From the NCBI GenBank assembly GCA_023701245.1, contig JAMPXK010000004.1, positions 1-64,000 of the forward strand: DNA of 64,000 bases, written 5' to 3'. Both the position numbers and the translations under genes were made by a program. The notes below the pieces were generated by a model. The model worked only from the letters and a program-made list of their open reading frames with translations. It made no database searches and was not told the origin of the DNA. Origin of the DNA: Elusimicrobiales bacterium. Lineage in GTDB: Bacteria; Elusimicrobiota; Elusimicrobia; Elusimicrobiales; UBA9959. Positions 14,034 through 38,200 of this stretch are shown here, one piece after another. Position 1 is the first letter of the stretch; the number at the start of each line of letters is the position of its first letter.

Positions 14034-14777
14034 CTACTGGCCGAAATCGAAACCTTTGAACAGGTCTTCTTCCGCCTTGTCGCCTCCGGCCGGCTGCGCC
14101 GGAGTATTCTCGGCGGGTTTTACCGGCTCGGGCCCCCTGGACCCGGGCAGCACCTGCAGGCGGCCGCGGCCTTCGCCCACCGGCTGCACTATCACCTTGC
14201 GCACGCCTTCCGCGAAAGCGAGGAACCCGGTATCCATGTTGTAGTACATCCGGAAAGGGGACTCCTTCATCTGCGGCTCGTAGGCCTTGCCCAGGTTTAT
14301 CTTCTGCTGGTCCCAGCCGGGGTTGTACACCAGCTTGCCGCGCACGTCCACCTCGCCGTCCACCACCGGCAGGGAAAAATGGATCTTGTAGAGGCCCATG
14401 GTGTCGCTGATGCCGGGCGCGAAGGACAGGTTTATCTGGGCATTGGCGTTCTCTTCGGGGGCGGCCTCAAGGCCGTCAGTGACCTCGGCCGCGCCGGTCT
14501 TGGACTTGCCGGTGTCGGGCTGCACCTTTACGGTGACGCCCTCTATGGGGTTGCCCTGGTAATCGGTCACCACGCCCTGGATGTTGCCGTCCAGGAACAT
14601 ACCCATCTTCACGGTGGAGAAGAAGAGCATTTCGCGCTTGCCCATCACCTTCTTGGTCAGCGACAGGTCTCCCACGCGGGAGTCCGTGTAATCCACCACC
14701 TTGAGCTTTTTAAACCCGCCGCAGCCGGCCAGGGCCGGCAGCAGCAGCAGCGTGACTAGAAATCTGGTCTTGTTCAT
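14034..14777 (-). CDS. Lipoprotein with carboxypeptidase-regulatory-like domain, at the end of the mot cluster
   Basis: MNKTRFLVTLLLLPALAGCGGF lipobox; GNIQGVVTDYQGNPIEGVTVKVQPD. Start placed at 14777 rather than the longest-ORF start 14903, which overlaps motB. Confidence 0.65.
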   Translation of the reverse strand: MNKTRFLVTLLLLPALAGCGGFKKLKVVDYTDSRVGDLSLTKKVMGKREMLFFSTVKMGMFLDGNIQGVVTDYQGNPIEGVTVKVQPDTGKSKTGAAEVTDGLEAAPEENANAQINLSFAPGISDTMGLYKIHFSLPVVDGEVDVRGKLVYNPGWDQQKINLGKAYEPQMKESPFRMYYNMDTGFLAFAEGVRKVIVQPVGEGRGRLQVLPGSRGPEPVKPAENTPAQPAGGDKAEEDLFKGFDFGQ

Positions 14778-14796: not shown

Positions 14797-15582
14797 TCAG
14801 TTTCCGCCTTCGGCGGCAGCGGCTTCGGCCGCGGGTTCTTCGGCGGCGGGCGCCTCGCCTTCGGGCGCGGGCGCGTTCTCGAGCGGCGCCGGGGGCTGGG
14901 CATTGGGCTCCGGCGGCTTAAGTTCGCCCGCTCCGGGCTTGGGCGGGGCCATACCGGGCGCGTCGGGGTAAGGATTGTTCTTGATGAAGAACACTACCCG
15001 CCGGTTCTTCTTCCTGTTCAATTCGTTGTCGTTGGGCACTATCGGGTGGTACTCGCCGTAGCCTACCGCGGCCAGGTGCTTGGGCGGGAAACTCTCCCCC
15101 AGCAGGGATTTGACCACGCTGGTGGCGCGCGCCGTGGAAAGCTCCCAGTTGGAAGCGAACTGCTTGGTGGCTATCGGGACATTGTCGGTGTGGCCTTCCA
15201 CTATGATATCGTGCTTTTCGGCCAGCTTCAGCAGCACCGGGCTGATCTTGTCCAGCTGGGACTTCATCTGGTCGGTCAGTTCGGCGCGGCCGCTCTCGAA
15301 GAAGGCCACCTGGCTCTGTTCTTCCAGGGTGATGCGCATGCCTTCCTTGTCCATCTGCACCTGCCCGGCCATCTTGCCCTCTTTGATCATCTCCTGGATC
15401 TGCTCCTGCGCCTTCTGCATGTCCTTGTTGAGGGCGGCGGACAGGGCGTAAAGGATGACGAAGAAGCAGACCAGCTCGGTCATGAGGTCGGCGTAGTTGA
15501 CCATCCACGGCGGGGCGGGGTGGCCTATCGCGGCCACCCTGGAGTCGTCCTCCGGGATCATCCCTTTTACTCTTATAGCCAT
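14797..15582 (-). CDS. motB: MotB-like stator protein (OmpA/MotB peptidoglycan-binding domain)
   Basis: PPWMVNYADLMTELVCFFVILYALSA (conserved TM Asp) and OmpA-type VEGHTDNVPIATKQFASNWELSTARATSVVKSLL. Confidence 0.88.
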   Translation of the reverse strand: MAIRVKGMIPEDDSRVAAIGHPAPPWMVNYADLMTELVCFFVILYALSAALNKDMQKAQEQIQEMIKEGKMAGQVQMDKEGMRITLEEQSQVAFFESGRAELTDQMKSQLDKISPVLLKLAEKHDIIVEGHTDNVPIATKQFASNWELSTARATSVVKSLLGESFPPKHLAAVGYGEYHPIVPNDNELNRKKNRRVVFFIKNNPYPDAPGMAPPKPGAGELKPPEPNAQPPAPLENAPAPEGEAPAAEEPAAEAAAAEGGN

Positions 15583-15595
15583 ACGGGGTTAAAGC

Positions 15596-16384
15596 TCAGG
15601 CCGCGGCCCCTTCTTTTTTCACGCTCTTGCGCTTTTCGGGTTCCAGGTAAGCTTTCAAATTGGCTTCCACCACGCTCGGGGTGGCGCCGCTCTGCAGCAG
15701 CAGCACGCCGCGGATGATGATCTCTTTTACGAAGAGTTCTTCTTCGGAGCGGTGCTTGAGCTTGCCGGCCATGGGCAGGAACAGCCAGTAGCCGGACCCC
15801 AGGCCGTAGAACGCGGCCGCCAGTGCCAGGGCCATGCGCCGCGGCACCTGGGCCACATCGTCGATGGAGGAAAGCATCAGGATCATGCCCAGCACCGTGC
15901 CGATGATGCCGAACGCCGGGGCGTAAGTGCCCAGGGCGTTGAAGATCTCGCGGCCGGCCTTATGGCGCTCGCGGATGAAGTCCAGTTCGGTCTCGAGCAT
16001 GTTGCGGATGAACTCGTGGTCGGCGCCGTCGATGACCAGCTGGACGGCGCGCTTGAGGAAGTCGTTGTCGATGCTCTTGGCGTCGGCTTCCAGCGCCAGG
16101 AAGCCTTCTTTCTTGGCCTTCTGGGACAGGGAGACGAAGGTGGAGACCAGCTTGGAAGTGTCTTCGCCCTTGGAGGCCATGACCTTCTTGAGCACCTTGC
16201 CCGTGCCGATGACGGAGGAGAGCGGGAAATTGACCAGCAGCGCGCATAACGTGCCGCCCATGACCACCAGGAAGGCTTCCACGTTGAGGAACGGCTTGAA
16301 GCCGGCCATGCCTTCGCCCAGGTAGACCGAGGCCACCACGAAGCCGAAAAAGACCACTATGCCGCTTAATGTCGCGATATCCAT
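15596..16384 (-). CDS. motA: MotA-like stator protein
   Basis: GTYAPAFGIIGTVLGMILMLSSIDDVAQVPRRMALALAAAFYGLGSGYWLFLPMAGKL; adjacent to motB. Confidence 0.9.
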   Translation of the reverse strand: MDIATLSGIVVFFGFVVASVYLGEGMAGFKPFLNVEAFLVVMGGTLCALLVNFPLSSVIGTGKVLKKVMASKGEDTSKLVSTFVSLSQKAKKEGFLALEADAKSIDNDFLKRAVQLVIDGADHEFIRNMLETELDFIRERHKAGREIFNALGTYAPAFGIIGTVLGMILMLSSIDDVAQVPRRMALALAAAFYGLGSGYWLFLPMAGKLKHRSEEELFVKEIIIRGVLLLQSGATPSVVEANLKAYLEPEKRKSVKKEGAAA

Positions 16385-16715: not shown

Positions 16716-18971
16716 TTACTTCTTGCCTTTAAGAGCCCACTTTATCCTGTCGCCGAGGGAATTTTCCAGTTCTTTGTACTTCGCCAGTTCCGCGTTGGCG
16801 GCCGCCAGCTGGGCCGCGTCGGCCTCGCGCTGCGCGTCGGCCGCGGCCTGCGTGCTGACCATGAGGGAGTGCTCGGCCTCGAAAGCCGCCGCGGTCTCCT
16901 GGGCCTGCATTTCCAGCTGCTGGATCTTCTGCTTGAGGAAGAGGAGTTCGGACTCGAAGCGGGCGCGGTTCTCGCTCTCGGTCCTGAAAGCGGCTTCGCG
17001 GGCCAGGAGGTTCTCGGCGCTGCGGGCGGCCTGCGCGTCGGAGGCGTTCTTCTGGGCGGCCAGCACGGAGTACTGTTCGCGCAGGGCGGCCACTTCCTCC
17101 ACCATGCGCTGGCGCTCGGCTTCCATGGCGCGGACGTACTTGTCGGTCTCGGCCTTCTGGGCCGAAGCCGCGGACACGGAGTTGGCCAGGAGGCTGGCTT
17201 CCGCCTCGGCCCTCTGCAGGCGGGCCTGGAATTCTTTCTCTTTTTCGGCCACCGCGTTCTCGAAATCGGTGGAGATGGTGGAGAGGCGGCGGTTCTCGAG
17301 GGCGTGCTTGAGGCCGGCGGCCTGCGCGGCGGCCAGGGCTTCGCGGGTCTCCTTGAGCTGGCCGGCGTATTCGGCCTCCAGCTGGCGCCGCAGGGCGGCT
17401 TTTTCCTCTTCGGCGGCGTTCTCGTACTTGCTGCGCAGCTGGGAAAGTTTGGTATCGAATTCCGCCTGGCGCTCGGCCACGGCCCTGTCGGCCTCTTCGC
17501 GGGCGGCGCTCTTGACCGCGGCGATCTCGTTCTGGCGGGCGGCGTTTATCCTGGAAATTTCTTCCTGGTGGACGCGCACTATGTCGGCGGTCTCTTCCGC
17601 GTGCTTGCGGGCCATTTCCGCCGCGTAGCCGTTCTTGACGCGGTCTATCTCGGCGCGCAGGCGCTTGGCCTGCTCTTCCAGCTCGCCCTGGTGGGAGGCC
17701 TTTATGGCGTCGTTCTCGCTCTTGAGGCGCTTGATCTCCTCCATCTGGGCGGCCATGTTCTGGGCCAGCTGCATCTTCTCCAGGCGCAGCTGCCCGCGCT
17801 CCTTGTCGAGCACGGCGTTGATGGCCTGCACCCGGGAGATAAAGCCTTTCATCTTCATCAGTTCGGAAAGGGCGCGCACCTTCTCGCCCGACACGTCGGC
17901 CAGGACCTTGTCCTTCTCCTGCAGCTGGACCTCGAAGCGGTTCTGGAGCTGGCGCAGCTCCTCGTTCTTCTCGGCGTTCTTGCGGTCGGAGAGGGAACCG
18001 ATCTCCGCCTGGAGCCGGCCCATCTCCTTCTGGAGCTTCTCTATCTCGAAATTGTTCTTTTCCTCGCGCAGCTTGGCCTCGCCTATGACGGCGGCCTCGC
18101 GGGCGCGCAGCTGGATATTGTCGGCCTTCAGTTCGGCCAGCTCGCGTTCCTTCTCGGGAATGACCTTTATATAGGACTCTATGGAGGCCTTCTCGCGCTC
18201 GGCGCGGGCCACTTCGTCGCGCATCTTGGAGACGTCGCGCTCCAGCATGGATTTCTCCATGGACACCTTGCGGAATTCGTCTTCGGTCTCGCGCAGCTTG
18301 GTATCGGCGTACTTGAGCTGGCCGATTACCGCCTCGCGCGAGGCGATCTCTTTCTGCCACTGGGCCTTCTCGTCCAGCCAGCGGCGCTCCATCTCCTGGA
18401 GGCGGTAGATAAAATGGCCTTCCACGTCCTTGCCCTGGGTCTCGCGCTCGGCCATCTGGTTCTTGAGCGTCTGCATCCAGGTCTCGCGCTCCTGCGCCAG
18501 ACGGGTTTCCAGTTCCTTGATCTTGCTCTTGAGGCCCAGCCGCTCCTCTTCCACTTCGTGGTCGCGGCGGTCGCGGCGCATCTTCTCCTGGATGTCCTTG
18601 AGGGAGGACTCCACGCGCGAGGACAGGGCTTCGTCCTGCTGGTTCTTCAGGGTGGCCAGCAGGGCCTTTTCCTTCTCCTGCGAAAGCGTCTTCTCCATTT
18701 CGGAGATCTTCTTCTCCAGTTTGTCCTTCTCTTCCTGCATGCGCTTGGCCTCTTCGGCCGCGGCGTCGCGCGCGGGGGCCGCGGGCGCCTGGGGCTGGGC
18801 GAACTGGGGGGCAAAGGGGGCCTGGGGCATCCCGGGCGAGGGCATGGCGCCGAAGGAGGGCGCGGCGGGCGGCAAAGAAGGTTTCCCCCCCATCGGCGGG
18901 AGGTTGGGCTTGAACATGCCGGGAGGAAGCGGGGGCATGCCGGGTTTGTTTATCTTCTTTTCGTCTGCCAT
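16716..18971 (-). CDS. Long coiled-coil protein with Pro/Gly-rich N-terminus
   Basis: 751 aa; extended E/K/Q/A/L heptad-like sequence after MADEKKINKPGMPPLPPGMFKPNLPPMGGKPSLPP. Confidence 0.75.
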   Translation of the reverse strand: MADEKKINKPGMPPLPPGMFKPNLPPMGGKPSLPPAAPSFGAMPSPGMPQAPFAPQFAQPQAPAAPARDAAAEEAKRMQEEKDKLEKKISEMEKTLSQEKEKALLATLKNQQDEALSSRVESSLKDIQEKMRRDRRDHEVEEERLGLKSKIKELETRLAQERETWMQTLKNQMAERETQGKDVEGHFIYRLQEMERRWLDEKAQWQKEIASREAVIGQLKYADTKLRETEDEFRKVSMEKSMLERDVSKMRDEVARAEREKASIESYIKVIPEKERELAELKADNIQLRAREAAVIGEAKLREEKNNFEIEKLQKEMGRLQAEIGSLSDRKNAEKNEELRQLQNRFEVQLQEKDKVLADVSGEKVRALSELMKMKGFISRVQAINAVLDKERGQLRLEKMQLAQNMAAQMEEIKRLKSENDAIKASHQGELEEQAKRLRAEIDRVKNGYAAEMARKHAEETADIVRVHQEEISRINAARQNEIAAVKSAAREEADRAVAERQAEFDTKLSQLRSKYENAAEEEKAALRRQLEAEYAGQLKETREALAAAQAAGLKHALENRRLSTISTDFENAVAEKEKEFQARLQRAEAEASLLANSVSAASAQKAETDKYVRAMEAERQRMVEEVAALREQYSVLAAQKNASDAQAARSAENLLAREAAFRTESENRARFESELLFLKQKIQQLEMQAQETAAAFEAEHSLMVSTQAAADAQREADAAQLAAANAELAKYKELENSLGDRIKWALKGKK

Positions 18972-19146: not shown

Positions 19147-21093
19147 CTACCGGCCCACCTGCTGCTTGAAGCCGGCCAGCCATTCGGAGGCGGCGGGGTC
19201 GCCGGACAGGGCGGCGTACTTTTCATAGGCCGCCAGGGCTTCGTCCACGCGCTGCAGGGAATAGTAGACCGTGCCCAGGTACTGCCAGGCGGACGCGTCC
19301 CCGGGGTTCTGCGACGAGGCGTATTCCAGGTACTGCAGCGCCTCCGGCAGCTTGCCCTGGTTGTAAAGGTCCACGCCGGCGGCCAGGTATTGCGCGGCCT
19401 GGGCGGCGGCTTCGGCGGAAGGCCCCGCGGGAACCTCCTCTTTGGGAGCCGACATGCTCTCGAACTTTCTGCGGCGCTCGTCTCCGGAGGACATCTCCGC
19501 GCCGTCTATGATATAGACTTCCTGCGTATTGCCCTGGCGCACGTTGATCTTGCCCTCCGACTCCAGGGTCTTCACGGCGTCCAGGATCTTGGTCTGCGCC
19601 TCGTCCTGCAGGGCGGGCGTGATGTCGCCGGAGTACTCCATGATCTCCTTGATGGCGTTGACGGCGCCCTGCGACATGTTGGCGAAGAACTTGTTGACGA
19701 TGGCCGGGTCCGCCTTGGACACGGCGCGGGCGATGTCCTCGTTGGAAAGAGCGCGGATGATGGTCTGCATGTCGCGGTCCGGGAAATTCACGATATCCTC
19801 GAACATCAGCACGATGCGCTTGACCTTCTCGTAGATGTCGGGCTTCTGGGTCTTGAGGTACTCTATGATGTTCTTGCGGGTGGCCGGGTCCGAATCGTCC
19901 AGCATCTTTACCAGGCGCTCTATGCCGCCCATCACGAAGTCCACGTTCTCCTTTATATCCTTATCTATGGCGTCTATCTGCTCGCGCGTAGCCTGCCGCA
20001 CGGTCAGCGCCTCCAGCGCCACGCGGCTCTGCATCTCCACCGGCAGCATGGAAAGGGCCTGGCGGGACAGGTCAGGCTTAAGGTAGCTCAGCACCACGGC
20101 TATCACCCACGGGTCCTCTTTGCGCAGCAGGAACAGGTAGATGAGCCGCTTGAGGTTTTCCTCGTTCAGGTACGTAAAAGGCTCGAATTTCTTCATACTC
20201 TCGTCCTCGTCTTCCTTCGCCTCCGCTTCCTTCTGCAGGAAATTCATGTCTATGCTCTGGTGGCCTTCGGTCTCTTCCTTCCCCTCATCCTCGCCGCCGC
20301 CACCGCCCCCTTCCTCCCGCTTGTCCTCTATATTGACCTCGGCCCCCGGCTTGGCCAGCAGCGCCTTGATGTATTTGCGGAAAAAGCCCCAGAGCGGCCC
20401 GAAAAGGAACAATAGCAGTATAAGGAAAAGCAGCGCGTAAAGCAACGGCAGGTACACCCCGGGGCGCTTCAGGTCGTCGAGCCAGTTGTGCGCCTTGAAC
20501 TTGGTGGGCTTGAACAGCACCGTGGGCGCGTCCTTCTTGCGGATCTTGTAGGGCAGCAGGAAGTCGTCCACGCGTTCCCGGGCCAGCTTCAGGGTGGCCG
20601 GGGGCACCAGGTCGTCATGAATGACCGTGATCTGGAAGCGGGTGATCTCGGTCTCCAGCCCGTAGCGGATCTCCTGCACGCCCTTGGCCTGCTGCGCCTG
20701 CTGACCCTGGGCGGCCTCGGGACGCTTATTGTCGTCGCCCAGCACGCTCTTGGGCTTGGGAATGCCGGGCAGGATGAAATCGGTATCGGCGCCGGACCCC
20801 GCGCCGGTGCCTTTCTCCTTGTACTTCTGGATTACGCCCACGCCCTCCTTGGTCTGTTCGGCCTTCTTGGAGATGACCTCCAGTTCCACGTCCGCGAAAA
20901 CGAAGGACTTGTCCGCCCCCAGGATAGGGTCCAGGATCTCTTTCTTTATCTTGGTCTCGGTCTCCCGGCGCAGGGAATCCTGCCTTTCCATGAGGGAAGA
21001 CTCCATCAAAGGACTTACCGGAGCGTCCGCGGCGTATATCCGCGGCGCCCCGAAGCTCCCCAGGAGCAGCAGGCCGGCCAGTACTTTACTCAT
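19147..21093 (-). CDS. FliF-like / FliG-like fusion protein with C-terminal TPR
   Basis: Signal peptide; FliF-C-like ILDPILGADKSFVFADVELEVISKKAEQT; TM segment; FliG M/C-like LPVEMQSRVALEAL...GGIERLVKMLDDSDPATRKNIIEYLKTQKPDIYEKVKRIVLMFEDIVNFPDRDMQTIIRALSNEDIARAVSKADP; TPR-like C-terminus. Confidence 0.75.
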   Translation of the reverse strand: MSKVLAGLLLLGSFGAPRIYAADAPVSPLMESSLMERQDSLRRETETKIKKEILDPILGADKSFVFADVELEVISKKAEQTKEGVGVIQKYKEKGTGAGSGADTDFILPGIPKPKSVLGDDNKRPEAAQGQQAQQAKGVQEIRYGLETEITRFQITVIHDDLVPPATLKLARERVDDFLLPYKIRKKDAPTVLFKPTKFKAHNWLDDLKRPGVYLPLLYALLFLILLLFLFGPLWGFFRKYIKALLAKPGAEVNIEDKREEGGGGGGEDEGKEETEGHQSIDMNFLQKEAEAKEDEDESMKKFEPFTYLNEENLKRLIYLFLLRKEDPWVIAVVLSYLKPDLSRQALSMLPVEMQSRVALEALTVRQATREQIDAIDKDIKENVDFVMGGIERLVKMLDDSDPATRKNIIEYLKTQKPDIYEKVKRIVLMFEDIVNFPDRDMQTIIRALSNEDIARAVSKADPAIVNKFFANMSQGAVNAIKEIMEYSGDITPALQDEAQTKILDAVKTLESEGKINVRQGNTQEVYIIDGAEMSSGDERRRKFESMSAPKEEVPAGPSAEAAAQAAQYLAAGVDLYNQGKLPEALQYLEYASSQNPGDASAWQYLGTVYYSLQRVDEALAAYEKYAALSGDPAASEWLAGFKQQVGR

Positions 21094-23278: not shown

Positions 23279-26200
23279 TTAGTGGATTATACCCACCTTG
23301 CGGGTTATTACCTTGCTGCCCTTGGGGCTGGCGGCCTTCACCCGCACTATGTAGCCGCCCTTGGAGACGAACCCGCCCAGACCGTTGCGGCCGTCCCAGA
23401 TCACGAAATTCGGACCCATCTTGCCGCCGTCAGAGCCGCTGGTGAAGGTGAACTCGCGCACCACGTAGCCCAGCAGGTCGTAGATGGTGATCGTCACCTC
23501 GGCATTGTCATTCAAGGTATAGTTAATTACCGTACGGCCTTCCACGCCGCCCTTGCGCAGGTCCACCGGGTTGGGGTAGTTGGACACCTTGCTGAGCAGC
23601 TCCGTGCCTATCTCGGTGCCCGCGGGCGTAGAGACGGTGGACCACTCGGAATGCATGCCGGCGAAGTTCCAGCTGCGGATGCGGTACGTGTAGTACTTGC
23701 CCAGCGGCCGCGGCGTCTCGCCGGGGTTCACGGGGTCGCCCACCGTATAGATATTGTTGACGGCGCCGCCGGTCTTGAAGCCGGGGATGGCCGCCACGGT
23801 CTTCCAGATCGGGATGGTGCCCTCGCGCTCCTGGATCTCGTAGGACATCACGTTGGACTCGTCGTCGCTGGCCGCGTCCCACTTCAGGGTGTACGCCTGG
23901 CCGCTGGCCACGCCCTTGGCCACCTGCGGCTCGGGCGCGCCGGGCGTGGTGGGATAGGTGGTGTCTATACGGTAGATCATCACCGGCACGCCGTTCTCGC
24001 TCGGGATATAGCGCCCGTCGGCCATGATGCCGCGCACGCTCAGGATGAAGCCGCGGTCGGACACCGTCTCGCCCCAGGCCGTGTGCGGGCCGCGGAACGA
24101 GCCCTGCACGCCGCGCTGGTTGATCTTGAAGGTGCGGCCGTCGAGCTTGGTCACCACCATCATCTCGTTGCCCACGTAGACCACGCCCTCGGTGGCGAAG
24201 CCTTCGGCGGAGACCACCGAGAACGAGGAGGTGTTGACGTCTATGCGGCTGGTCAGCCTGGTGAAATGGCCGGGCGAGAGCGCCACGTTGGTCAGCCTGC
24301 CGGACAGAGCGGACCCTACCGGCTGCCAGGCGTTCTTGATGCCGGTGGGGTCGGAGAAGCTGCCGCCCAGGGACAGTTCATAGGCCACCACGGGCCCGGA
24401 AGCCGGGTTCCACATGGCGTTAAGTTCCGTGGTCTTCGAGGACCAGCCGCTGGGGACGGCGCCCAGGTCCGAGACGGCCAGCAGCATCTTGACGTTCTGC
24501 ACGTTGTCGCCCAGGAAGTACAGCGGCTTGCCCGTGCCGTCGTTGACGATGCGGTCCGGCACGTAGTCCAGGTTGGTCTCGAAGTCCAGCAGGTGGTCGC
24601 TGTCCACGTCGAACGAGGGCAGGCCGGAGTTGTTGAGGCTGATATTGGTGCACTTGCCGGTGCCGTAATAGTCGAAGTTATCGGGCCGGCCGTCGCCGTT
24701 GATATCGATCAGCGGCTCGTCCGCCTTGCAGGCGATGCCGGGGTAATTGTAGATCCAGCGGCTGGTATCGGCTATAGGCACGTTGCCCGCGCCCAGCACC
24801 ACGTTGCCGCTGGAATCGGTCAGGGCGTAGGCGGGATAGCCGTTGGAGGCCATCATCACCTCGTTGTACACCGGCGTCAGCGGGATGATGGCGGGCGAGA
24901 TCAGCACCTGGCCGGACTCCATCGGGTACTTGTCTGCGTAGTACTGGCCGGCGGCCAGCGGCATGCCGCCCATGCCGCGCAGGTCCGTGAAGGACCCCAG
25001 GGTCAGGCCGGCCATGTGGCCCATGATATCGGCCCCGGAGAGGTCGGTGTTGGAGCTGATGTCGCAGGACAGGTGCAGGGTCACCGTCCAGGTGGAAATT
25101 ATGAGGTAGGGCAGGTTCTTGTCCGTGATGTTTATGGCGATGCCGCCCTCGAAAGGCATGGTGGAGGAATGCAGCGCCGTGCCCAGGCGGGTGTCGCCTA
25201 TGGGGCTGAAGGCGCCGTCGCCGTCGTCCTTCCAGAGCGAGACGGAAGCCAGGTCGCCGTCGCCGAAGTTGAACGTGGAACTGCTGATAGTGCCGGACTG
25301 CTGCAGGTTGACCTGGCCCAGCGCGACATAATCCGACACCGTGTAGGTATTGAGCGTCATCACCGGCACGTTGCGCGTCCCCTTCTCCGCGGACTTGGGC
25401 GCTATGCTGATGCCGGTCACGGAGAAGTTGACGGCCTTGATGGGCACCAGGCTGGAGTTGAAGGGATAGATATCCGAGTACGTGCCCTTGGGCAGCGCCT
25501 TGGTAACCCCGATGTAGAGGGTGTTGGCCACGTCATGAGGGACGTTCACCGCGATCCAGGATTTGTCCCGGATCATCATGCCCACCTTGTTGGCCTTGAT
25601 GGCCATTTCGCCAAGGTCGTACACGGCGAAGTAGGTCTGCGGCAGCGGGCTCAGCGTCTGGGGCTGCGCCAGGCTGATGGAGGTCTGGGTATTGAGCGGG
25701 TTCTCCTGGTCGTACAGGTCCACTTTGCGCACGCCCACGCGCGCCGCGTGGTCCACTGTCGGCGTAAAGAAGTCGCCCAGTTTCTCCCCTCTCGAGAAGA
25801 CCCGCAGGTAAGGCTTGCCGCTGACCGCGTCTATGCCGGTCCCGTCGTACGAGACCAGTTCCGCCTCCTCGATGTAGAGGCGGCCCGCCACGGGGAAGCC
25901 CGCGGTGGAATTCAGGATCAGGTTGAAGGGCAGGGTGTCCGTGGACACGAACGGCACCAGCGTGGTGGCCCTGGCCTCCGAAATGTTGACGTCGTTGACG
26001 TCCAGCAGGTCGTTCTGGTTGGAGTCCTGGTAGACCCTGATGAACTTCACGTCGGTGTTCTTGCCGAAGGGCGCATTGGGGTCGTTGGAGGCGCCGGTGC
26101 GCTGCATCTTGATGGCGGTCCAGCGGGCGTTGCCGGCCTCGGTGGCCAGGTTAAAGCGTATCATGGGGGCGTCCAGCTGCGCCTGGTTCACGCCGCCGTC

Positions 26201-29200
26201 CAGCACCAGCTGGGTGGCCACGTCGTTGGCGCCCAGCACCACGTTGGACGGGATCTCCTTGACCACCATGGGCATGGTATTTATCGGCCAGGTGGTAAAG
26301 GCCACCGTGTTAGGAATGCCGATGGTGAAGTACCCGGCCGAAGAAATGGACAGGGAGGCCGTGCTGCCTATGATGGCGAACTGCGACATGTCGTAACTGA
26401 TGAAGGCGCAGGCCGAGTTGGTGGTGACCACGATGGGCTTCTTGAGCGTGATGCGCACCGTGCTGGAAGAGTAGGACTCGTTGCCGTAACTCATCAGGTT
26501 GGGGTAACTGCCGGTGGAGTCCGACGAGGTGTCCACGGCGTCCAGCAGGCAGTTCTCATTGGAGTCGCGCCAGACCTTGATAAGGTCGATGTCCGAGTCA
26601 TTGGACGAGCCGCGGCGGTCCAGCTTTATGGCTTCCACCCTGGCGGAGGTCTTGTCGGTCACCAGGCGCATGGCCAGCACGCCCACGTTCTTGTCGTTCT
26701 GGGTGACGGTGACCGGCGAGATGTCCTCGGGGGTCATCGTGATATTGTTCATGGTGGGCAGCAGCACGTTCATCTGGCTTACGGCCGGGTTCAGGAACTG
26801 CGCCACGTGGCCGGAATTCTCCGGTCCGAACACGAAGTTGGTCTCGAACGGTATCTCTATGCCCAGCACGTCGTTCTGCGGGTTGAGCAGGATGCTGGAG
26901 AAATTGGAGGCCTTGTCCACGTCCACGGAGACGAAGATCAGGATGGGCGTGGAACGGACGACCACGTAGTTCTGATTGAGCAGCGCGGGGTCGCGCACCG
27001 CTATGGTGGCCTTGCCCACGGGGTCGCCGTTGCGCCCGAACTGGCCGGCGCCTATGACCGTATCGGTCAGGTTCAGGCCGGTGGCGGTGTCGCGGTCGAA
27101 CACGCCGTTGCCGTTGTCCTTCCAGACGCGGATCACGGCCGCGTCCTCGTCGTAGCCGGTCAGGCTGGACGGCTGCCGGCGCGAGAGCTTGATGCCCTGC
27201 CAGCGCACGCCGAAGCCGGGAGTGGTCAGCGTCATCTGCATGAGCGGGTAGTTGAGCCAGCCCTGGTACATCATGCCGCCCACGGCCGAGCCGCTGGAAT
27301 GGTTGACGGTCGGGGAGTTGAAGGCGCCGCGCGTTACCACGGTCAGGGCGCCGGCCGCGGTGCCGTCGTAATGGATGATCTCGTTGTCCACCATGGCGTA
27401 GCCGGAGGCCGGGATGCCGGCCGTGGAGACCACCAGCCAGGCGGCGTCCATGGGACCGGGGCTGGTAACGTCCGCCGCCAGCCGCATGGCCGGCATGGAG
27501 CCGGAGGTGTCGGGCGAGAAGATAGGCTCGGTCAGCACCGTAATGGTACTGGGGCTGGAAACTATTTCGCGCACCACGGAGGCGAAGGTCAGGTTGGAGC
27601 CGGCCATGGAGAAGTAGTTGGGCAGCGACAGGGCGTTCTTGGACACGTCGTCCACCACGGGGCTGTTCTGCGGGAACGAGTCCGGCTTGAGGTAAGCGCC
27701 CAGGTAGCGCGGGTTGCCCAGGGCGTCGTTGGGCATGGCCGAGGCGCGGATGTCGTAGGTCAGGAAGTAGCGCTGGGAAACGGAGTTATTGGCGGCTTCC
27801 AGCTGGGTGAAGATGCGCTGCTCCGTGCCGAAGTCCACCCTGGAGGTCAGCGGGCCGTAGATGGTATTGCCGAAGGTACCGGAACCCACCATGACGTCAC
27901 CGCCGCCCAGGAAGCCGTTGTTGTCCTTGTCGTACCAGATCTTGACGGCGGAAATGTCGGACAGGGCGGTGCCGTCCTGGATGACCGTGCCGGTGGCGTA
28001 GACCATCAGCCAGCGCCACGTCGCGTCCGCTACGTCGGTGGTCATGGTAAAGGTGATCACCGGCTGGTTAAGGGCCTGCTGCTGCAGGCTGGGGCCGGTC
28101 AGCGTGTCGGAGGCCTTTATGATGACGGCGTCGGAATACTCGCGCACCTTGCCGATAAGCGACACGGATTTGCCGGGCGGCATCACGCCGATATTGGCGG
28201 TGCTCATGTACTTGGGCGAGGCTATCTTGAAATAGTCCGTGGCGCGGATGGCCAGGCCCAGGTAGGCGAAGTTGGAGACATTGGCCAGCGGGTCCAGGTC
28301 ATAGGTCACGAAGTAATCTTTCGGATCGTTGTAGATGGCCTGGCCGTCCAGCGCGCCGCCGTCGCCTATGATAGGCAGGATGGCCTGGCCGGAAACCACC
28401 GTGCCGGTGGACCAGTCCACTATGGAGGTGCCCTCCGCGCCGCGCGTAAGGCCGCCGAAGGAGTTGCCCAGCACGTCCACCGTGGAATAGTAGACCACCT
28501 CTTTGAGCGAGGGATCGGCCTGGCCGTCGTTCACCACCAGGCGGCCCGGCGCCTGCGGGAAGGGGCTGTCCGACGGGAAGAACCGCTGCATGTCCTGGAC
28601 GCGCAGGACGGTATCCGTGGAGGTCAGAGGGGCCTTCAGGGTGTCATAGGGGAAAGTGCGGTCCTTGAGGCCTATCATCAGCACCTCGGTGTCCTTGACG
28701 GTGCCGGTGGTGACCAGCAGGCCGTCGCCGGTGGAGTCGTACCAGATGCTGATCTTCTTGACGTCGGTCACCTTGTTCCAGGCCGGGGTATTGCCGTTCT
28801 CGGCGCCGGTGATCCAGCGGTCCAGCTTGAGGCCGCTCCAGACGGCGGAACCGTCGGAACCGTTGATCTGCATGGTGAGCCTGGCCACGGCCGTGTCCTT
28901 GTCGTTCTGCGTTACGAACGAGGGCTTGGAGAAGTCGTTGGGCTGCGACTTGTTCACGTCCGTCAGGTAGACGATGTCCGCCGTGGCCAGGAGCGGCACG
29001 GTGGAGGAGACTATGGGCTGGAAGGACCCGACCACGCCGTCTATCAGGTTCACACCGGAGTTCTCTATGCGGGCGCCGTGCGTCATATTGGGCACGGAAT
29101 CGGGTCCGAACTCGTAGACCACGTAGTAGGTGCGCGTGCTCACGGAGATGGCGCCGTCCAGGCCGGGGTTGATGAGCGGCAGCACGAAAGTGTCCGGGTC

Positions 29201-32200
29201 AAGGATGTCGTAGGCCGGCGGGTTAAGCGGGTCGGTGACCTCCTTGTCGATGCTGGGAGCGAAGATGCCGTCGCCCAGGTCCGGGTCGCCGCCGGAAGCG
29301 TCCAGGAACAGGCGCACGCTCTTGAGGTCCGCGCCGCTGCCGGTACCGGTCTTGATGACCTTGAAGGACTTGATGGTGCCGATGAAATTGTCGGTCCAGG
29401 CCTTGAGTTCGAGGAAGCCCACGCGGCCCTGCCCCTGTTCCACGTAGGCGTACTGGCCCAGCGTCAGCGTGGTGGTGCCCACGGAAGGCTGCCACCAGGC
29501 CGCGATGTCGTTGCCCTGGATCTGCACGGTGGCGGGCTGGTTGCGCACCGGCGAGGTGGCCGTCTGGATCGGGAAGTTGTTGTAAGCCACGCCCACGAAG
29601 GTGGAGTTGAGCACCACGAACGACGGGTTATCCATCACCAGCGCGAAGCTGCGCGGCGTGGCGGCGATGGTGGACATGCGCACCGCGAAGAAGAAGTTGC
29701 GCGGCGTATTGGAGACCAGCGCGGCCGTGGAGACCTTGGCGGCCAGGTCGTTGAAGCCCCAGGCCATCAGCCCGGTGTCATAGGTACCGGTGGACATCAG
29801 GATATCTATGGGGGCGCCGCCCAGGGACGTTTCGCCGTCGAAGGCGCCGATCTGGCCGAAAGTGGGATTGTCGGCGTACATGCCCACTTCCACGATGTCC
29901 GACCAGGACAGCGTGCCGGAACTCTTGATCTGCACGGAGTTCATGTACGCGGGCGGCGCGCCGGCCGGCGAGGTCTGCATGGTCAGGCGCAGCATGGGCA
30001 CCGGGGCGGGCACGTCCATGATGACGCCGTCGCCCTGGTAGATGGCGTATTTATTGATGCCGATGGAGGCCTTGGCGACCGGCAGCGGGTCCTCGGGCGC
30101 CATGTCGGTGGGCGTTATGACCAGGCCCGACAGGATCACGTCCGGGGAGGACTGCACCGGCATGCCGCGGGCGCCGTCGGCGGTATGACCGTAGATAGTG
30201 GTGTGGTGATAGTCGGTGACATTGACCTTCAGCGTTTCCACGAAGGTGTCCTGCAGCAGCAGCTGCCGCTCGCCGCGGTCGGCAGGCACGAACACATAGT
30301 CCGTGGTATTGTTGAGCCAGTCGCGCAGGTCGGCCGACCCCTTGGAACTGGTGGCCATCTTGATCTTGCCGGTGTAGTACATACCGTTCACGGCGTCACC
30401 GGTGGCCACGTTGCCGAACTTGTCGCGCGCGCGCAGCGTGACGTTGCCGGGGGTCTGCACCCGCAGGGGGTTGCCCAGGCTGTAGTTATGGTGCAGCGTG
30501 AAGTAGGCCACCGTGCTGGGCGTGACGTAGAGTTCCTGGGTGATCTGCGGCAGCACCAGGCCGTCGGCCGAGATGGAGGCGTCGGCGTACACGGTAGCGG
30601 TGCCCACTATAGTGTCCCAGAGATAGATATTGGCGAAACTCTGGCCGGGGAAGATGCTCAGGTCCACCGGGTTGGTCTTGAGCAGTTTCCATGCCGGGTT
30701 GGCGGAATTGACGGCCTCGTAAGGGTCTATGCCGCCGTAGGTGGTGTTGCGCAGGGCGGAGAAGCGCACCGTGGCCACGGAGGAGGTGGTGGTGGTGTTC
30801 TCGAAGCGGTCCTTGAGCACCACGCTGACCACCGTGGTAGTGGTGATACTGTTCACATAGTCGGCGTACTGGATGGTAGTACCGGCTATCAGGCGCCGCG
30901 GCTGGTTATAGAACAGCACGTGGTGCGGCGGCGCCGCCACCACCACGTAGGACGAGATCGCCGGCAGCCAGCCCTTGGGCATGACCGTATTGACCGTCAG
31001 CTGGTGGGCGGGATAGGAAAGCAGCGTGTCGGTCAGGTAGAAACTGGTGGCGGACTGCCCCAGGGACATCTTGGCCGAGCCGGGCCTGGCCGTCCAGCTG
31101 GACACGTCGGGAGCGGCGAACTCCACCAGGCCGGGGGAATCCGAATCCATCGTGAAACTGACGCCCTGGCCCACGCCGTCCTCCTGGCCTCCGGCCACCG
31201 GGGTGGGGTTGCCGAACCTGTCCTCTATGGACAGGGTGAAGGGCTGCGAAGTGGTGCCGGCCATGAGGGTCTGCCCGGCGTTCACGCTGACGTTCATGCG
31301 GTAGGTGAAGTCCGGCACTACATGCACGGCCTGCGTGGAAGACGCCCACGCCGCGCGGTCAGGGGCGGAGAGCCGGATGATCGGGCGCAGCGGCACGGTG
31401 GAACCGTAGAGGCTGGAGGCGGCCGTGTCGAGGTAATAGAAGGTGGCGGAGTACGCGTCCAGCGGGATGGTGATATAGTCGGCCGTGGAAGAGAACACCG
31501 GCGGGAAGACGGCCGCGGTGGGAGTGCTCAGCGAGAACGAGAAGGAATCGTTGATGGGCGACGCCATGCGCGTATAGGTGGACAGCAGCACCTGCACGGC
31601 CGCGGTGGCCAGCGACGGGTTGTCGAACATGTCGCGCAGTTCGGCCTCCATGGTCTGCTGCACGCCGAAGGTGTCTATGATCTTGCCGGCCACCAGGGTG
31701 CGCCGGGGATTGCCGAAAGAGACCTTGGCCACGTCGATGGGGTCCATGCGCAGCTGGTGGATGGCCGGCTGCATGGAACCCGAGCGGGCCTCTATCTGCC
31801 AATAGCCGGGGCGGCCGCCCTCGGAGGTGTTCAGGGCCGGCGAGAGGCCGGAGTAGGACGCCGTCCTGTCGTGGTAGCGGAACGAGACGTTGGTCTGGTT
31901 GGGCAGGATGCTGGCGGCCGGGATGAACTGGTCGTTGAGCGGCGTGCGGAAACCGTAGTCTCCGAAGGTGCCGAAAGTGCCGATGGTGCGGCCCAGGGCG
32001 GTATGCACCGAGACCTGGGACCCGGGCAGGCTGAGGTAGACGTCGGTCTGGCCCTGCTTGGTCAGGTTATCGAAGTCGTCGCGGCGCTCCACCGTGAAGG
32101 CGGCGCCGGCGCCGGCCACTTCCTGGATGCCTACGAAAGCGACAGGCTGGCTGGAGATGAAGAGCAGCTTGGAAGGCACGCCGCCGGTGGTGGTCATCAG

Positions 32201-35200
32201 GCCGCTGACGTTCTGCCTGGCGGCCACGTAGGTGGCGTAGGCGGAAGGCCCCGCTATGGTGGTGGTGCCTATCCAGATGCGGGCCCAGTCTCCGGCCTTG
32301 CTGCCCACCTGGTACGCTATCTGCGTGGAAACGCCCACCTGGCCGTTGACGTCCGTATAGACTATGGTGGAAACGCCCATATCGAGCCAGGCGGAAAGCT
32401 TCTCGTACTGCAGGGTGCCGGTAGACCCGAACACCTCGGAGATCTCCACGTAGGCAGGTACGCCGGCCGAGGAGATGTTGTTATCGAAAGCGTCCGAAAG
32501 CTGGGCCGTCATGGTCTGGCGCCCGGGCAGCAGGATGGAACCGGCCGCCACCTCGATGTCGCCGTTGGGCACGACCCGGTAGATGTTGGGCGGCCCGGGC
32601 GTGACCGCCACGTCCACCATGGGCGTCACGTTCACCATCGGGTTCAGGCTGTCGTAAGCGCCCAGCGTGTTGACGCCGGCCCTGCGGAAGGTGAACCAGT
32701 TGGGCAGGGGCTTGACGCCCTGGTCGGAATAGTAGAAAGCCGCCGTGGGCGCCGTCATGCTCGGGTCCTGGTTGGGGTTCACCTGGTCCACCATGGCGAA
32801 GGTGGCAGTGCCCAGGTAGACGTTGGGGCCCGTGGAGCAGAGGTTCTCGTAAATGTCCTTGACCATCAAGGTGGCGGAGAAGGGGAACCCGGCCACCACG
32901 GTGGTGGACGGCATCATGTAAAGCATGTGCGTGGGCGGGCCGGGGTGTACGGCCAGCGTGGAGATGCCGGTGACGTAGTCGGCGGCCGAGGCGGCGGTGG
33001 TGGCGGCTACCACGGTGTAGGTGCTGAAAGAGGTGCGGGCGTCGATGGAGAACACCGCGCTGCCGTTGGAAAGCGTCTGGGGCCCGGGAGGCGTGGTCTT
33101 GAAGTCACCGGGGACCTCCACGCTTACCGTGGGCATCACGGCCACGGGGTTGGTGTCCTGCGCCGCGGAGACGAGTTCCGTGGCCTTGTTATAGAACCTG
33201 TCGGTCACCACCACGGTGGCAAACAGCGCCCCGGTGCCTATGGTGTGGGCGGGCGGCGGACTGGTGCGCCCGGGCCAGGAGATGAGCGGGTCGCGGCAGG
33301 GCGGGCTGATATTGCACTTGCCTTCGGCCAGGCCCTGGCCGGGCAGGATCACTTCCAGGCGGGTGGCGGTGGAAGCGTAGACCTTGACCGGCGTCCTGGT
33401 AGCGGCGTCGTCGGTGCGGCACACGTTGCCGAAGTTGCCGGAGCACATGTTGTTGTCGGGCGCCAGCACGGCGTAGAGCTTCAGGTAGGAGGCGGCCTTC
33501 TTGGTGACCAGATTCATCTGCACCTGCAGCGTGCCGTAGTTCAGCGCGGAGCTGGAGACGGGCGTGTCATAGAGGTCGTCGGGCGTAACGATGTAGATGG
33601 TCGGGCCCACCGACAGGTCGGGGAACCGGTTCATGTACGGGTCCACCAGGTTGACGGTAACGCTGAACGCCTCGCCGGCGGTCTGGGTGGAGATGGCCGA
33701 CACTTTCCCCCCCGCCGGGTAATTGCCTGAGCCGGGCACCGCCGTCTCGCCGGGCAGCAGCAGCTGCAGGCCCACGGGGTCGGCGGGGCGCACCGTGAAG
33801 GTGGAGGACTGCGTGTCGTCGGACAGGCCGGAAGAGCCGTAGTCGGTGGCGGTCAGGTAATGGGTGGCGGCCTTGTGCATGTTGACGTACATGAGGTCCG
33901 TGTAGCCCACCGCGGGATTGATGGCGGCGGTGCTGACCGCGGGCGCGTACGGGTCCGAAGGCGCCACTACCCTCACGTCGGCGGGCCGGCCCGGCACCAG
34001 GTTGAAGAAGTCGTCCACCACGCCCACCCGCACGCCGAAATCGGTGCCGGCCTTCTGCTCTCCGGTCTGGCCTATCTTGCCGGTGTCGGAGCCCTGGTCG
34101 AAACCTTCTCCGGGCATCAGCAGGAGCATGCGGCGCGGTATGCCGGGGGCTACGTTCACTACCGTGGCAGTGTCCACCAGCAGCGACGGGCCCCACTCGG
34201 GGATCAGGGTAAGCATTTCCGCCCGCACGTAGGTCTCGCCGGCGCGCTTGGGGGTGACCGTAAAGGTAGCCGAACCCACCACCACCTGGGTGGACGGGGT
34301 AACTATGGAGAACGGATCGTTGCAGACCAGGCGGATCTCCTGGCTGGCGCCGGGGATGAGGTTCCAGAAAGCGTCGGTGATGTCCACCGTGACGGTGAAG
34401 GGGAAGCCGGCCTGCTGGCCGTCCACGCCGCCCGTGCGGCCGTTTGTGGTGGAGCCGGGCACGCGGGACTGCAGCGGTACCATGGCCCGCAGCTTGGTCG
34501 GGTTATTGGGATTGAGCAGGAACGTGCCGCTGGGCGTGGCGCCCAGGTTGGGGCCGGTGCCGCTCAGGTCGGTGGCGGTAACCGTCCTGAAACCGGCGCT
34601 GCGCAGGTTTATATTACTGAAGGTGGCGCTGCCGTCCACCATGTCGAAGAAGCCCAGCAGGCCGCCGTTGGCGTTCAAGTCGTCGGTAGTAGCGCGTATA
34701 TTGCTCTTATTTATGCCGTAGACGCGGTTGTACCGGGAGTCCGCGGCGTAGATCTGGGCGTTGAAGTAGACGCCGGCCGTCTGCGTGGAGATGTTGCCGG
34801 CCACGCCATAGGGCAGGATATTCTTGCCGGGCACCAGCGTCTGGGTAGGCAGCAGGACTATCAGCCTGGACGCGGTGCCGGGCTGCACCACCACGCCGGC
34901 GTCGGTGCTGGTGGAAAGCCTCGGGTTGACGGTGTCGTCGTCCAGGCCCTCTATCACCATGTTGTTGGTGGCGGCGCTGGGCACGAACCCGTTGAATATC
35001 GCGATGCCGCCGGCCATGGGCTGGGCCGGGGGATGCACCGCGTAGATGTCGTTGGAGACGACCTTCACCATGCGGCCATCGGTGGTCAGGTTGCCGTAAA
35101 CGTCCACGGCGCGGATGGAGACCGTATAGGTGGAGCCGGCCACCAGCGGCCCGGCCGTGCCGGTCTTGCCGCCGGGCACGCCTTCGGCCGCCACCTCGTT

Positions 35201-38200
35201 GGGGACCAGCAGCAGCATGCTGACCGCGGGCGCCGGGTTCACGATCACGCCGGTAATGGTGTCGGTGCTGAAGCTGGTGCCGGTAAGGCCGGTATCGGTC
35301 ACCTGCACGGTGAGGCCGGTGGACTGGTTGCGCGTGACCGGGATCACGCTGAAATTGGTGGTGCCGGCCACGAGGCTCTTCTGGTACGGCGCCGGGTGCA
35401 TGCCGCGCAGCTGGATGTTGGCGTCGTTGAGGAAATCCACCTGGATGACCGGCGTGTTGGAGGACACGGCCAGGAAGGGCGTGGTGCCCCGCACCACGTT
35501 ATAGTAATCGTCGGTCAGGTACACGCTCATCTGCGTGGTATTGCCGGCCTGCAGCTGCGCCGCCAGGCCCGACTTGCCGCCGCCGGAGGGATTGGAATCG
35601 TAAGGCGGCTTGCCGGGGTCCAGGGTACGGCCGGCAGGCAGCAGGTGCAGTTTCACGGGGCGGTTCCACCACACGTTCACCGCGTTGGGGGTGAAGTAGA
35701 AGGACGTGGCCGGAGGCAGGGCGGCGCTTTCCGCCTTGATGGTGTGCGTAGCGGCCACCACGGGGATGAAGTTAAAGACCGTGGTGCCGGCTATCAGGCT
35801 GCGCGGCGCCGGCGTGGCGTCGTAGGGGTCGGTGTAGACGCTGCCGGACACCAGGAAGCCGGCGGTGATATCGGTGTTGTAGTAAGGGTCCACGCCGAAG
35901 ATGGTCACGGCGAGGGTAGAGCCGGCCAGCGCGTCGTCGGGGGTGCCGCTCTTGCCGAAGGGCGGCACGGCGAACTTGCCCTGCACCCGGGTCTCGCCGG
36001 GCAGCAGCGCCAGCAGGCGGTCCGCGGCCTGGGCTATCACGGGCACGTTGGAAGAGGGGTTGCGCGAGTTGGTGTAGAGCCCGTGCCCGAAGGCCGATAC
36101 GCCCCAGCCGGAAGAGTTGGCCGACACGAAGGTGCGGAAGATGGTGGTGGAACCCACGAAGGCGGCGTAGCCGTCGGGGGAGATGGACGCGTTATTGTCG
36201 TCCGTATCCGTTATGTACACGTTGGCCGCGGACGAGAGCACCAGGTTCCAGTACCGGTCGGTCACCTGGACCAGGAAGGGGATGCTGGAGCCGGCCGGCT
36301 TGGTGCGCGGCGTGCCGGTGCTGCCTTCCACGCCGGAATCCATGCGGCCGGGCTGCGGCAGCTGGCCGGCGGGGTCGTAGTCCGCTATCACCTGCACGCG
36401 GTCGGCCACGGTGGGGTTCACGGTGACGTTCCGGGTGCCGAAGATGGCGGGGTTGTCTTTGTCCTCGGAACGCAGCACGCGGCCGCCGGCCTTGCGCAGG
36501 CGCACCTGGAAGGTCTTGGCGCCGAAGTCCCCCGGCAGGAAGGTGTACTGCTGCGGCAGGCCGCGGTAGTCGTCCATCACGGCGTCGTTGTCCATCACTT
36601 CGGGGCCGCCGGGCACGCCGTCCACGTAGAAGTTGACGGTGCCCTGGTAAGCCGCGGCCGTGTTGCCGGTGCCGTTAGGTCCGTCCTTGGCCTCCACGGT
36701 CACGTTCACGTCGGAACCGGCCGTCATTGGATCGGCGGCTATGGTGACCAGGAAACTCTGGGCCGGGGCGGCGATATAGAACTTGGGCCCCTGGTCGATG
36801 ATGGTCTCGGTGTTGCCCGCGTTGTCGGTCACGCGCACCCAGGAGACGTAAGGGTCGCCGCGCACCCAGCAGGGGGTGCCCGTCGGGTTGGGCTCGGGGC
36901 AGATAAGGCCGGAATACTGCCAGTTGCCCAGCGAATCGGTGAACTGGCCGGGCTGCCAGACGGGCCCGGCGGAAGCCGCGGTCCAGGTGGAGCCGTTCCA
37001 GAAATACCCGGAAGCGTCCCAGGCGCCATATATGATAGGGCCGTTGGAGACCAGGAAGGGGGCCGTGTCGCGGAACACCAGCGCCTCCACTTTGCCGGCA
37101 TGCCAGCCCAGGGTCGGGTAAACGCCGGAGCCGGTGCCGTTTATCCCGGCGGTAAAGCCGAGGTCAGAGGAGTTGCCCAGCACCACCTTGTTGTCGTTGT
37201 AGACCGTGGCGTTCACGGGGCTGACCACCACCGACTGGGGCTCGGTGGTATCGAACAGGAAGCGCGACTGGCCCACCGCGTTCTGCACGTTGCCGATGGA
37301 ATCGGTAGCGGAGGATTTTACCACGTAGTGGCGCTTGTCCACGAACGTCATCAGACCGTTGGTGTAGGACCAGGAGGACGGGTAGAGGGAACTGACCGGC
37401 AGCCAGGTCTCCGTAACGTTCACGAAGTTGGAGCCGTCGAAATACTTGGCGCCGCCGGGCTCGTCCTGGCTGAGCACGGAGAGCTTGACGCTGGCCACGG
37501 TAGTGACGGCGTCCGCGGAGTTGCCGTAGATCATGGGCAGGTTCTTGTAGGACGTATCCGCGCCGGGCTGCACCGGGGCGGACAGCGGGGGCACGTTGTC
37601 GAACTGGAACGACCGCGTGCCGTAGGCCACCTCGTAGTTCAGGGTCGCGTCGCGGGCCCTGGTGTTGACATAGAACACCTTGCCGTTCTCTCCGTCATGG
37701 GTGCCTTCCTTCCAGGCGAAGTTGACCGTGCCGGGATTGGAGAAATCGGAATTGGAGTAGGTCCACGGGTTATACGTACCCTTGGGCCCCGGGGCGCCGC
37801 CTATGGACCACCAGTTGTCGGAGAGCGACCAGTGCGGCGTGGTCGGCTGCCAGTAGTAAGTGGCGCCGCCGGAGAGGTACCAGATGCGCACCGACACGTC
37901 GCCGATGGCGGAGGTAAGGTCCAGAGACTGGCCGGAGAGGGCCGTCATGGAGGAGAACAGCAGCCCGCTGACGGAGGGATAGGTCACGGTCGAGATCGGC
38001 GGGGTCGCGTCGTAACTGAACGTGGAGGAGACGACGGTGTAGTTGCCGGCCTGGTCGGCCGCCTTGGCCTCTATGCGCAATTCGTTATCGCGAGGAGGCC
38101 ACGGCAGGGAGGCGGAATTGTAGTTCCAGGTGAAACTGCCGGCCGCGGAGGAGGAGTCGAGCGCCACGTTCCAGATCTCCGGGAAGGCGGGGCAGTTATT

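Follow-up and report, generated by a model that had tools for sequence, protein, structure and literature searches.

A natural FliF–FliG–TPR fusion encoded with MotA/MotB-type stator genes and T9SS-like surface proteins in Elusimicrobiota

The window, i.e. the whole 64,000-nucleotide stretch that was analysed, belongs to a genome of an Elusimicrobiales bacterium (2.55 Mb in 96 contigs, 92.8% complete) and carries an operon centred on a fusion of FliF-like and FliG-like regions in one polypeptide (Table 1). The gene order, which is also the usual one among relatives, is giant secreted protein, PorV-family protein with a TPR tail, fusion, cytoplasmic coiled-coil protein, MotA and MotB. The lipoprotein encoded 3′ of MotB has a weak carboxypeptidase-regulatory-like match, and housekeeping genes (for an MnmA-type tRNA enzyme and a D-Ala-D-Ala ligase) follow at the edge of the operon.

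Table 1. Features of the fusion locus, in coordinates of the window
Feature	Position	Strand	Basis
Lipoprotein with lipobox LAGC; start probably at 14777 (ORF called from 14903)	14034..14777	(-)	conserved after MotB
MotB-type stator subunit: plug/TM (D32 kept) and OmpA-type peptidoglycan-binding domain	14797..15582	(-)	profiles
MotA-type stator subunit, 262 aa, R90 position = K	15596..16384	(-)	profiles, 8ucs match
Coiled-coil protein, 751 aa, no signal peptide, proline-rich N-terminus	16716..18971	(-)	conserved downstream partner
FliF(RBM3/collar)-TM-FliG(MC)-TPR fusion, 648 aa	19147..21093	(-)	ATG start, single ORF
Fusion residues 570-632: cytoplasmic TPR tail	19198..19386	(-)	Pfam
Fusion residues 412-517: FliG C-terminal (torque) domain, D288 position = E	19543..19860	(-)	Pfam, structure match
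Fusion residues 322-384: FliG middle domain, EHPQ motif degenerate (EDPW)	19942..20130	(-)	Pfam
Fusion residues 211-235: single TM helix, FliF TM2 equivalent	20389..20463	(-)	model, hydrophobicity, alignment
Fusion residues 28-202: periplasmic FliF RBM3 and beta-collar-like region	20488..21012	(-)	profiles, fold search
PorV/PorQ-family outer-membrane protein with C-terminal TPR, 538 aa	21325..22941	(-)	107 bits vs cut-off 90
Giant secreted protein, 12,501 aa, recurring motifs (Ig-like-type repeats)	23279..60784	(-)	sequence
Conserved C-terminal domain of the giant, resembling T9SS type A sorting domain / FlgD-Ig	23282..23641	(-)	profile similarity

The FliG part of the fusion matches FliG_C (E=1.3e-24, 87 bits against a cut-off of 23.3) and FliG_M (E=8e-11, 42.4 bits against a cut-off of 25) in Pfam, the NCBIfam fliG model covers residues 306–527 (E 3e-32), and the tail is recognised as TPR (E=2e-9) and is present in all 24 aligned class-1 relatives. 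The FliG middle and C-terminal domains and the TPR tail read by the initial annotation are confirmed by these matches. Superposition of the FliG C domain of the full fusion model (mean pLDDT 72, pTM 0.31) gave a TM-score of 0.96, by target length, with T. maritima FliG-C (1qc7) and of 0.93 with FliG of the MotAB–FliG complex 8ucs. The chain has one hydrophobic transmembrane segment, at about residues 211–240, and a Gly/Glu-rich linker of low model confidence lies between it and the FliG middle domain, making up most of residues 248–300.

The region upstream of this segment follows a signal-peptide-like N-terminus and, searched as a single sequence, had no Pfam FliF match, so that family-wide profiles were needed. 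YscJ_FliF_C (PF08345) is matched by 10 of 24 class-1 relatives (best 7e-6) and by 11 of 15 class-2, i.e. paralogous, relatives (best 2e-5). The class-2 profile found the FliF chain 9yh6 in the PDB at E 1.8e-9 and Salmonella 6scn at E 1.7e-8, over FliF residues 234–481, and the class-1 and class-2 profiles align with each other along the FliF–TM–FliG length (E 1.6e-70). Profile–profile comparison of class 1 with two true flagellar FliF proteins from Elusimicrobiota aligned fusion residues 28–202 with FliF 212–363 (E 4e-6, probability 87%). The class-2 paralogues contain RGDxxxxxxxxF, a motif known from the end of FliF RBM3. When the N-terminal model (residues 1–260, pLDDT 76) was searched for its fold in the PDB, FliF MS-ring structures took all 17 top places, but the TM-scores by query are only about 0.3, and the match therefore backs homology and says little on detail. 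Region by region, both the FliF-like N-terminus that the initial annotation had proposed, which comprises RBM3/collar only, and the TM helix after it are supported.

The same architecture was found in 87 distinct homologues, all from Elusimicrobiota and from independent assemblies, so neither chance nor an assembly join accounts for it: FliF RBM3/collar, one TM helix, FliG M/C and TPR stand in one natural chain. FliF is also joined to FliG in one chain in the Vibrio S-ring structures 8z4d and 8z4g; however, Vibrio itself encodes the two proteins separately and that chain is therefore a construct, whereas the join in Elusimicrobiota is natural, trimmed and extended by TPR.

No match to RBM1/RBM2 of FliF (YscJ_FliF, PF01514) was found in the fusion or in the host genome, and FliG_N (PF14842) reached only 18.5 bits (cut-off 25), overlapping the M/C repeats only. 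In flagella, FliF is linked to FliG through its C-tail and the N domain of FliG, both of which the fusion lacks. In the FliM-binding EHPQ motif, H126 is replaced in 87/87 homologues and Q128 in 84/87 (by tryptophan in 71), in agreement with the absence of FliM. Residues were placed with T. maritima FliG and the MotA of 8ucs as references, and counts for the fusion were made on the 87 distinct homologues, each locus once. The E. coli numbering is presumably correct, having been counted back from the E. coli/Salmonella C-terminus and checked against one stretch of sequence. Two MotA–FliG contacts have been published, the pairs R90/D288–D289 and E98/R281 (PMC12505986). At the first, FliG D288 is glutamate in 87/87 homologues, so that the acidic charge is kept, D289 is variable, and MotA R90 is lysine or arginine in 58/58; judging from the alignments, this charge contact (E288–K/R90) is kept on both sides. 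At the second, R281 is replaced by glycine in 81/87 and is never arginine, and MotA E98 is replaced in 36/58 and remains glutamate in only 22, the rotor side thus appearing lost and the stator side relaxed. R297 is likewise never arginine. MotA P173 and P222 are kept in 58/58, and MotB D32 in 57/57. As read from these residues and domains, the fusion appears to keep what MotAB needs and to have lost exactly the parts that serve only a flagellum (RBM1/2, FliG_N and EHPQ), and its pairing with MotAB as rotor and stator is well supported by sequence.

The MotA of the operon scores 239 bits with the MotP/MotA model and E 2.5e-49 with MotA of 8ucs, with homology over the whole length including the cytoplasmic region, and MotB matches the OmpA (E 5e-17) and plug (E 2e-12) profiles; by sequence, both belong to a flagellar-type stator. 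The operon was surveyed at 76 loci in a species-representative collection, all of them from Elusimicrobiota or from bacterial MAGs matching them; the loci were found by one peptide pattern, which may miss homologues in other phyla. PorV was testable at 63 loci and is encoded directly upstream of the fusion at 58 of them; downstream lie the coiled coil at 56 of 59 loci and MotA and MotB at 40 of 49. At six of the nine loci without MotA a longer gene intervenes and puts the coiled coil about 5–7 kb downstream, and MotAB may there lie past the flank. The operon is conserved from Elusimicrobia to Endomicrobiia. Endomicrobiia-type loci (L047:10504-15312(+), L049, L052, L063 and L064) have a 1,600–1,860-aa protein between fusion and coiled coil, with a C-terminal TPR where scanned. 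The closest proteins, from GWA2_62_23 and a groundwater MAG, are 92–93% identical. Against six close relatives, Nei–Gojobori counts gave dN/dS values of 0.10–0.19 for the fusion, 0.07–0.22 for MotA, 0.15–0.25 for MotB, 0.19–0.31 for PorV and 0.23–0.44 for the coiled coil; values this low, as in the fusion, indicate that the operon is maintained under purifying selection. No cultured organism with the FliF–FliG operon was found in this analysis.

Searches of the host genome for FlhA, FliM/N_C, flagellin and the YscJ_FliF N-terminal domain gave no match, while four control genomes matched in each search, and no full-length FliF was found in the host. Separate flagellar genes, whose presence would have spoken against the initial annotation, are thus not detected, and its reading stands. 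Among 248 Elusimicrobiota genomes, FliG_C occurs in 92 and FlhA in three, the same three in which FliM/N exceeds the cut-off; FlhA is absent from 90 of the 92 FliG-bearing genomes, the exceptions being G032 and G215. In the latter, FliF and FliG are encoded separately within a normal flagellar operon, and the fusion operon lies on another contig. In the FliG M/C tree, a branch (92/84) has the flagellar FliG proteins, those of G215 and G032 among them, all to one side, class 1 forms one group (90/70), and class 1 together with eight class-2 rows forms another (93/93); several branches are long and the details are therefore unsure. The host itself has three further FliF–FliG loci, without TPR, on contigs C52, C86 and C43 (L042, L043 and L044, respectively), with MotB in all three (two MotB genes on C43) and MotA seen in two, and several paralogous FliF–FliG motors may coexist in one cell. 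The small-genome family f2 of the same order is almost wholly without FliG in the listed genomes (one match, G135), which suggests loss of the FliF–FliG system in that lineage.

At the surface side of the operon, the giant protein has a signal-like N-terminal sequence and motifs recurring every ~120–140 residues. Its C-terminal domain reaches 21.6 bits with the T9SS type A sorting domain, just under the cut-off of 23; in relatives, the protein encoded upstream of PorV terminates in this domain too, and weaker copies lie at eight other places in the host genome. Complete ORFs of relatives' giants encode 14,428 (G111) and 14,454 aa (G004), and seven others, cut by the fetched stretch, encode at least 7,300–15,500 aa. 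In place of one giant, G012 has three proteins of 1,498–3,198 aa with a similar ending. Separate 129–161-aa proteins upstream of PorV at L050, L051, L052, L062 and L064 resemble the giant's sorting domain. At L045 (G030), PorV, fusion, coiled coil, MotA and MotB are present, but an RND efflux transporter stands upstream in place of the giant. As a sorting-domain protein lies upstream within 6 kb in only 29 of 59 loci, and as that transporter takes its place in G030, the giant is perhaps dispensable as a partner. The paralogous FliF–FliG/MotAB locus on contig C86 contains a PorP/SprF-like TPR protein (38.5 bits, cut-off 22.3), a protein with a CHU_C type B sorting domain (30.8, cut-off 27) and a sensor kinase. 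HAMP-HisKA histidine kinases lie between the PorP/PorV-like gene and FliF–FliG in class-2 loci (L043:6924-8237(+), L078:11469-12830(-)), hinting at sensory control of the class-2 motor.

Both the PorV-family carrier and a SprA homologue of the T9SS are encoded in the host, the latter (E 3e-32 with SprA in the PDB) at C76:16662-21839(-). This conserved SprA-like family (~1,800 aa; L169–L182), whose genes usually lie beside lptF/lptG-type permeases and comF, was found in 61/61 genomes searched, including those of family f2 without FliG, and a T9SS-type translocon seems to be general in Elusimicrobiota. GldM was matched in 0/248 genomes, in a search without positive control, and the PorU-type sortase (Peptidase_C25) in 1/248 and not in the host, though none of 14 named controls matched either. 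The genome-wide PorP/SprF search missed the 38-bit match in the host that hmmscan found and was unusable for linkage; absences from genome searches therefore weigh less for remote families.

Taken together, these observations make it probable that the operon encodes a non-flagellar, export-free, PMF-driven rotor–stator machine coupled to T9SS-type surface adhesins, serving gliding or secretion. The "minimal membrane-anchored rotor" of the initial annotation is the best reading of the fusion, backed by the MotA/MotB genes of the operon and the conserved MotA–FliG charge pair, with rotation itself as the predicted step; the operon, its stators, its conservation across the phylum and the link to surface proteins go beyond what that annotation saw. 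The fusion would enter the inner membrane by its N-terminal signal, leaving the RBM3/collar part, presumably ring-forming, in the periplasm; FliG M/C and the TPR tail would be cytoplasmic, and a single chain would thus supply both ring and track. MotB would tie MotA to peptidoglycan, and ion flow would turn the MotA pentamer, pushing the FliG C domain through the K/R90–E288 contact. With no FliM/FliN there would be no C-ring switch, its cytoplasmic place being probably taken by the TPR tail and the coiled-coil protein, and the periplasmic ring would have no export gate, rod or hook. Bacteroidota-type carriers and substrates share one operon with the rotor–stator pair, and we infer that MotAB drives the ring and that the work is passed to the surface protein. 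The ring would drive the giant T9SS-type adhesin, directly or via the lipoprotein and the PorV-type TPR tail, and the outcome would be movement of the adhesin (gliding), its export, or both. A more specific version, in which a flagellar rotor–stator pair without export apparatus, C-ring or filament drives T9SS-type adhesins (among them those of 12,000–15,000 residues) in gliding, with several paralogous motors per cell, would be a further rotary surface machine; it is put forward tentatively, as somewhat short of probable. The loss of R281 and R297 from the torque helix is a point against the proposed machine.

The same loss would fit a non-rotating scaffold or Tol-like force transducer of the envelope, in which MotAB turns and the FliF–FliG chain is a static anchor or mechanosensor. 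The histidine kinases inside class-2 loci agree with such a role, and TPR tails and coiled coil suggest scaffolding; yet the FliG C fold and the E288–K/R90 pair are invariant, and MotB keeps D32 and its peptidoglycan-binding domain, which makes a non-rotating chain improbable. More weight is given, as an unlikely but serious alternative, to a motor that energises nothing beyond the giant's export or assembly along a T9SS-like SprA/PorV route, in the role that GldLM has in Bacteroidota, without cell movement. The PorV family upstream in nearly all loci, the T9SS-like C-terminal domain of the giant, SprA in the host and all relatives searched, and the empty GldM search (again, one without positive control) speak for it. 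However, the universality of SprA extends to genomes without FliG, where export accordingly needs no such motor, and a PorU-type peptidase is nearly absent. The same distribution of the SprA family also weakens the simple view of the motor as a stand-in for GldLM in the T9SS.

Leftover flagellar genes do occur in other bacteria (PMC12199754), and the fusion might be the decaying remnant of a lost flagellum. This reading is contradicted by the selection data and was rejected as highly improbable: dN/dS is about 0.1–0.2, the ORFs are intact in all 87 homologues, a TPR domain has been added and the new operon conserved, and in G215 a flagellar operon and the fusion operon stand together with separate FliG lineages. 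That the fusion belongs to an ordinary flagellum whose other genes lie elsewhere in the genome borders on the untenable; flagellar operons do exist in three Elusimicrobiota genomes, but FlhA is confined to these, and the idea was rejected on the searches of the 92.8% complete host for FlhA, FliM/N, flagellin and the FliF N-domain.

Compared with the bacterial flagellar motor, the candidate machine shares homologous FliF RBM3/collar and TM2, FliG M/C and MotA/MotB, together with the R90–D288-type contact, MotB D32 and the peptidoglycan-binding domain. It differs in its single chain, TPR tail and T9SS-like surface partners, and in that RBM1/2, FliG_N, the FliM-binding motif, FliM/FliN, export apparatus and flagellin were not detected. 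With gliding and the T9SS of Bacteroidota it would share, as far as sequence tells, a PMF motor, a carrier of PorV or PorP/SprF type, a sorting-domain surface adhesin and a SprA homologue, but the motor is FliF–FliG/MotAB in place of GldLM, the carriers have TPR tails, GldM is undetected (no positive control) and the sortase family is nearly absent. In the Agl machinery of Myxococcus, AglZ is a cytoplasmic coiled-coil partner, as the 751-aa protein may be here. Agl/Glt is not known to use FliF or FliG. The Elusimicrobiota operon, in contrast, pairs a flagellar stator of MotA/PomA type with FliG as the track. A motor of MotAB/TolQR type drives movement on surfaces without a flagellum in the Myxococcus AglRQS–Glt system (PMC9389320). 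In Bacteroidota, substrates leaving SprA are carried by PorV if of type A and by SprF if of type B, and a PMF-driven motor moves the adhesin bound to SprF (PMC12635249).

No description of the FliF–FliG system was found among the open-access papers searched. Its parts are members of known families and its torque unit is of a known kind; the whole machine would be new if confirmed. The evidence suggests a so far undescribed rotary machine in cells without flagella, one that would serve surface adhesion, movement or secretion, and the operon is a concrete candidate for it: its gene set spans the phylum, its parts are defined and its contacts can be tested. If this is true, the FliG–MotAB torque unit works outside flagella, RBM3 and FliG MC in one chain make a minimal natural rotor, and a function is offered for some of the giant proteins of Elusimicrobiota, an outlier phylum in this respect (PMC11573180). 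Beyond the giant gene, the window (61338-62810(-)) encodes a PQQ/BamB-type beta-propeller protein with a Big_9/PKD-like N-terminus.
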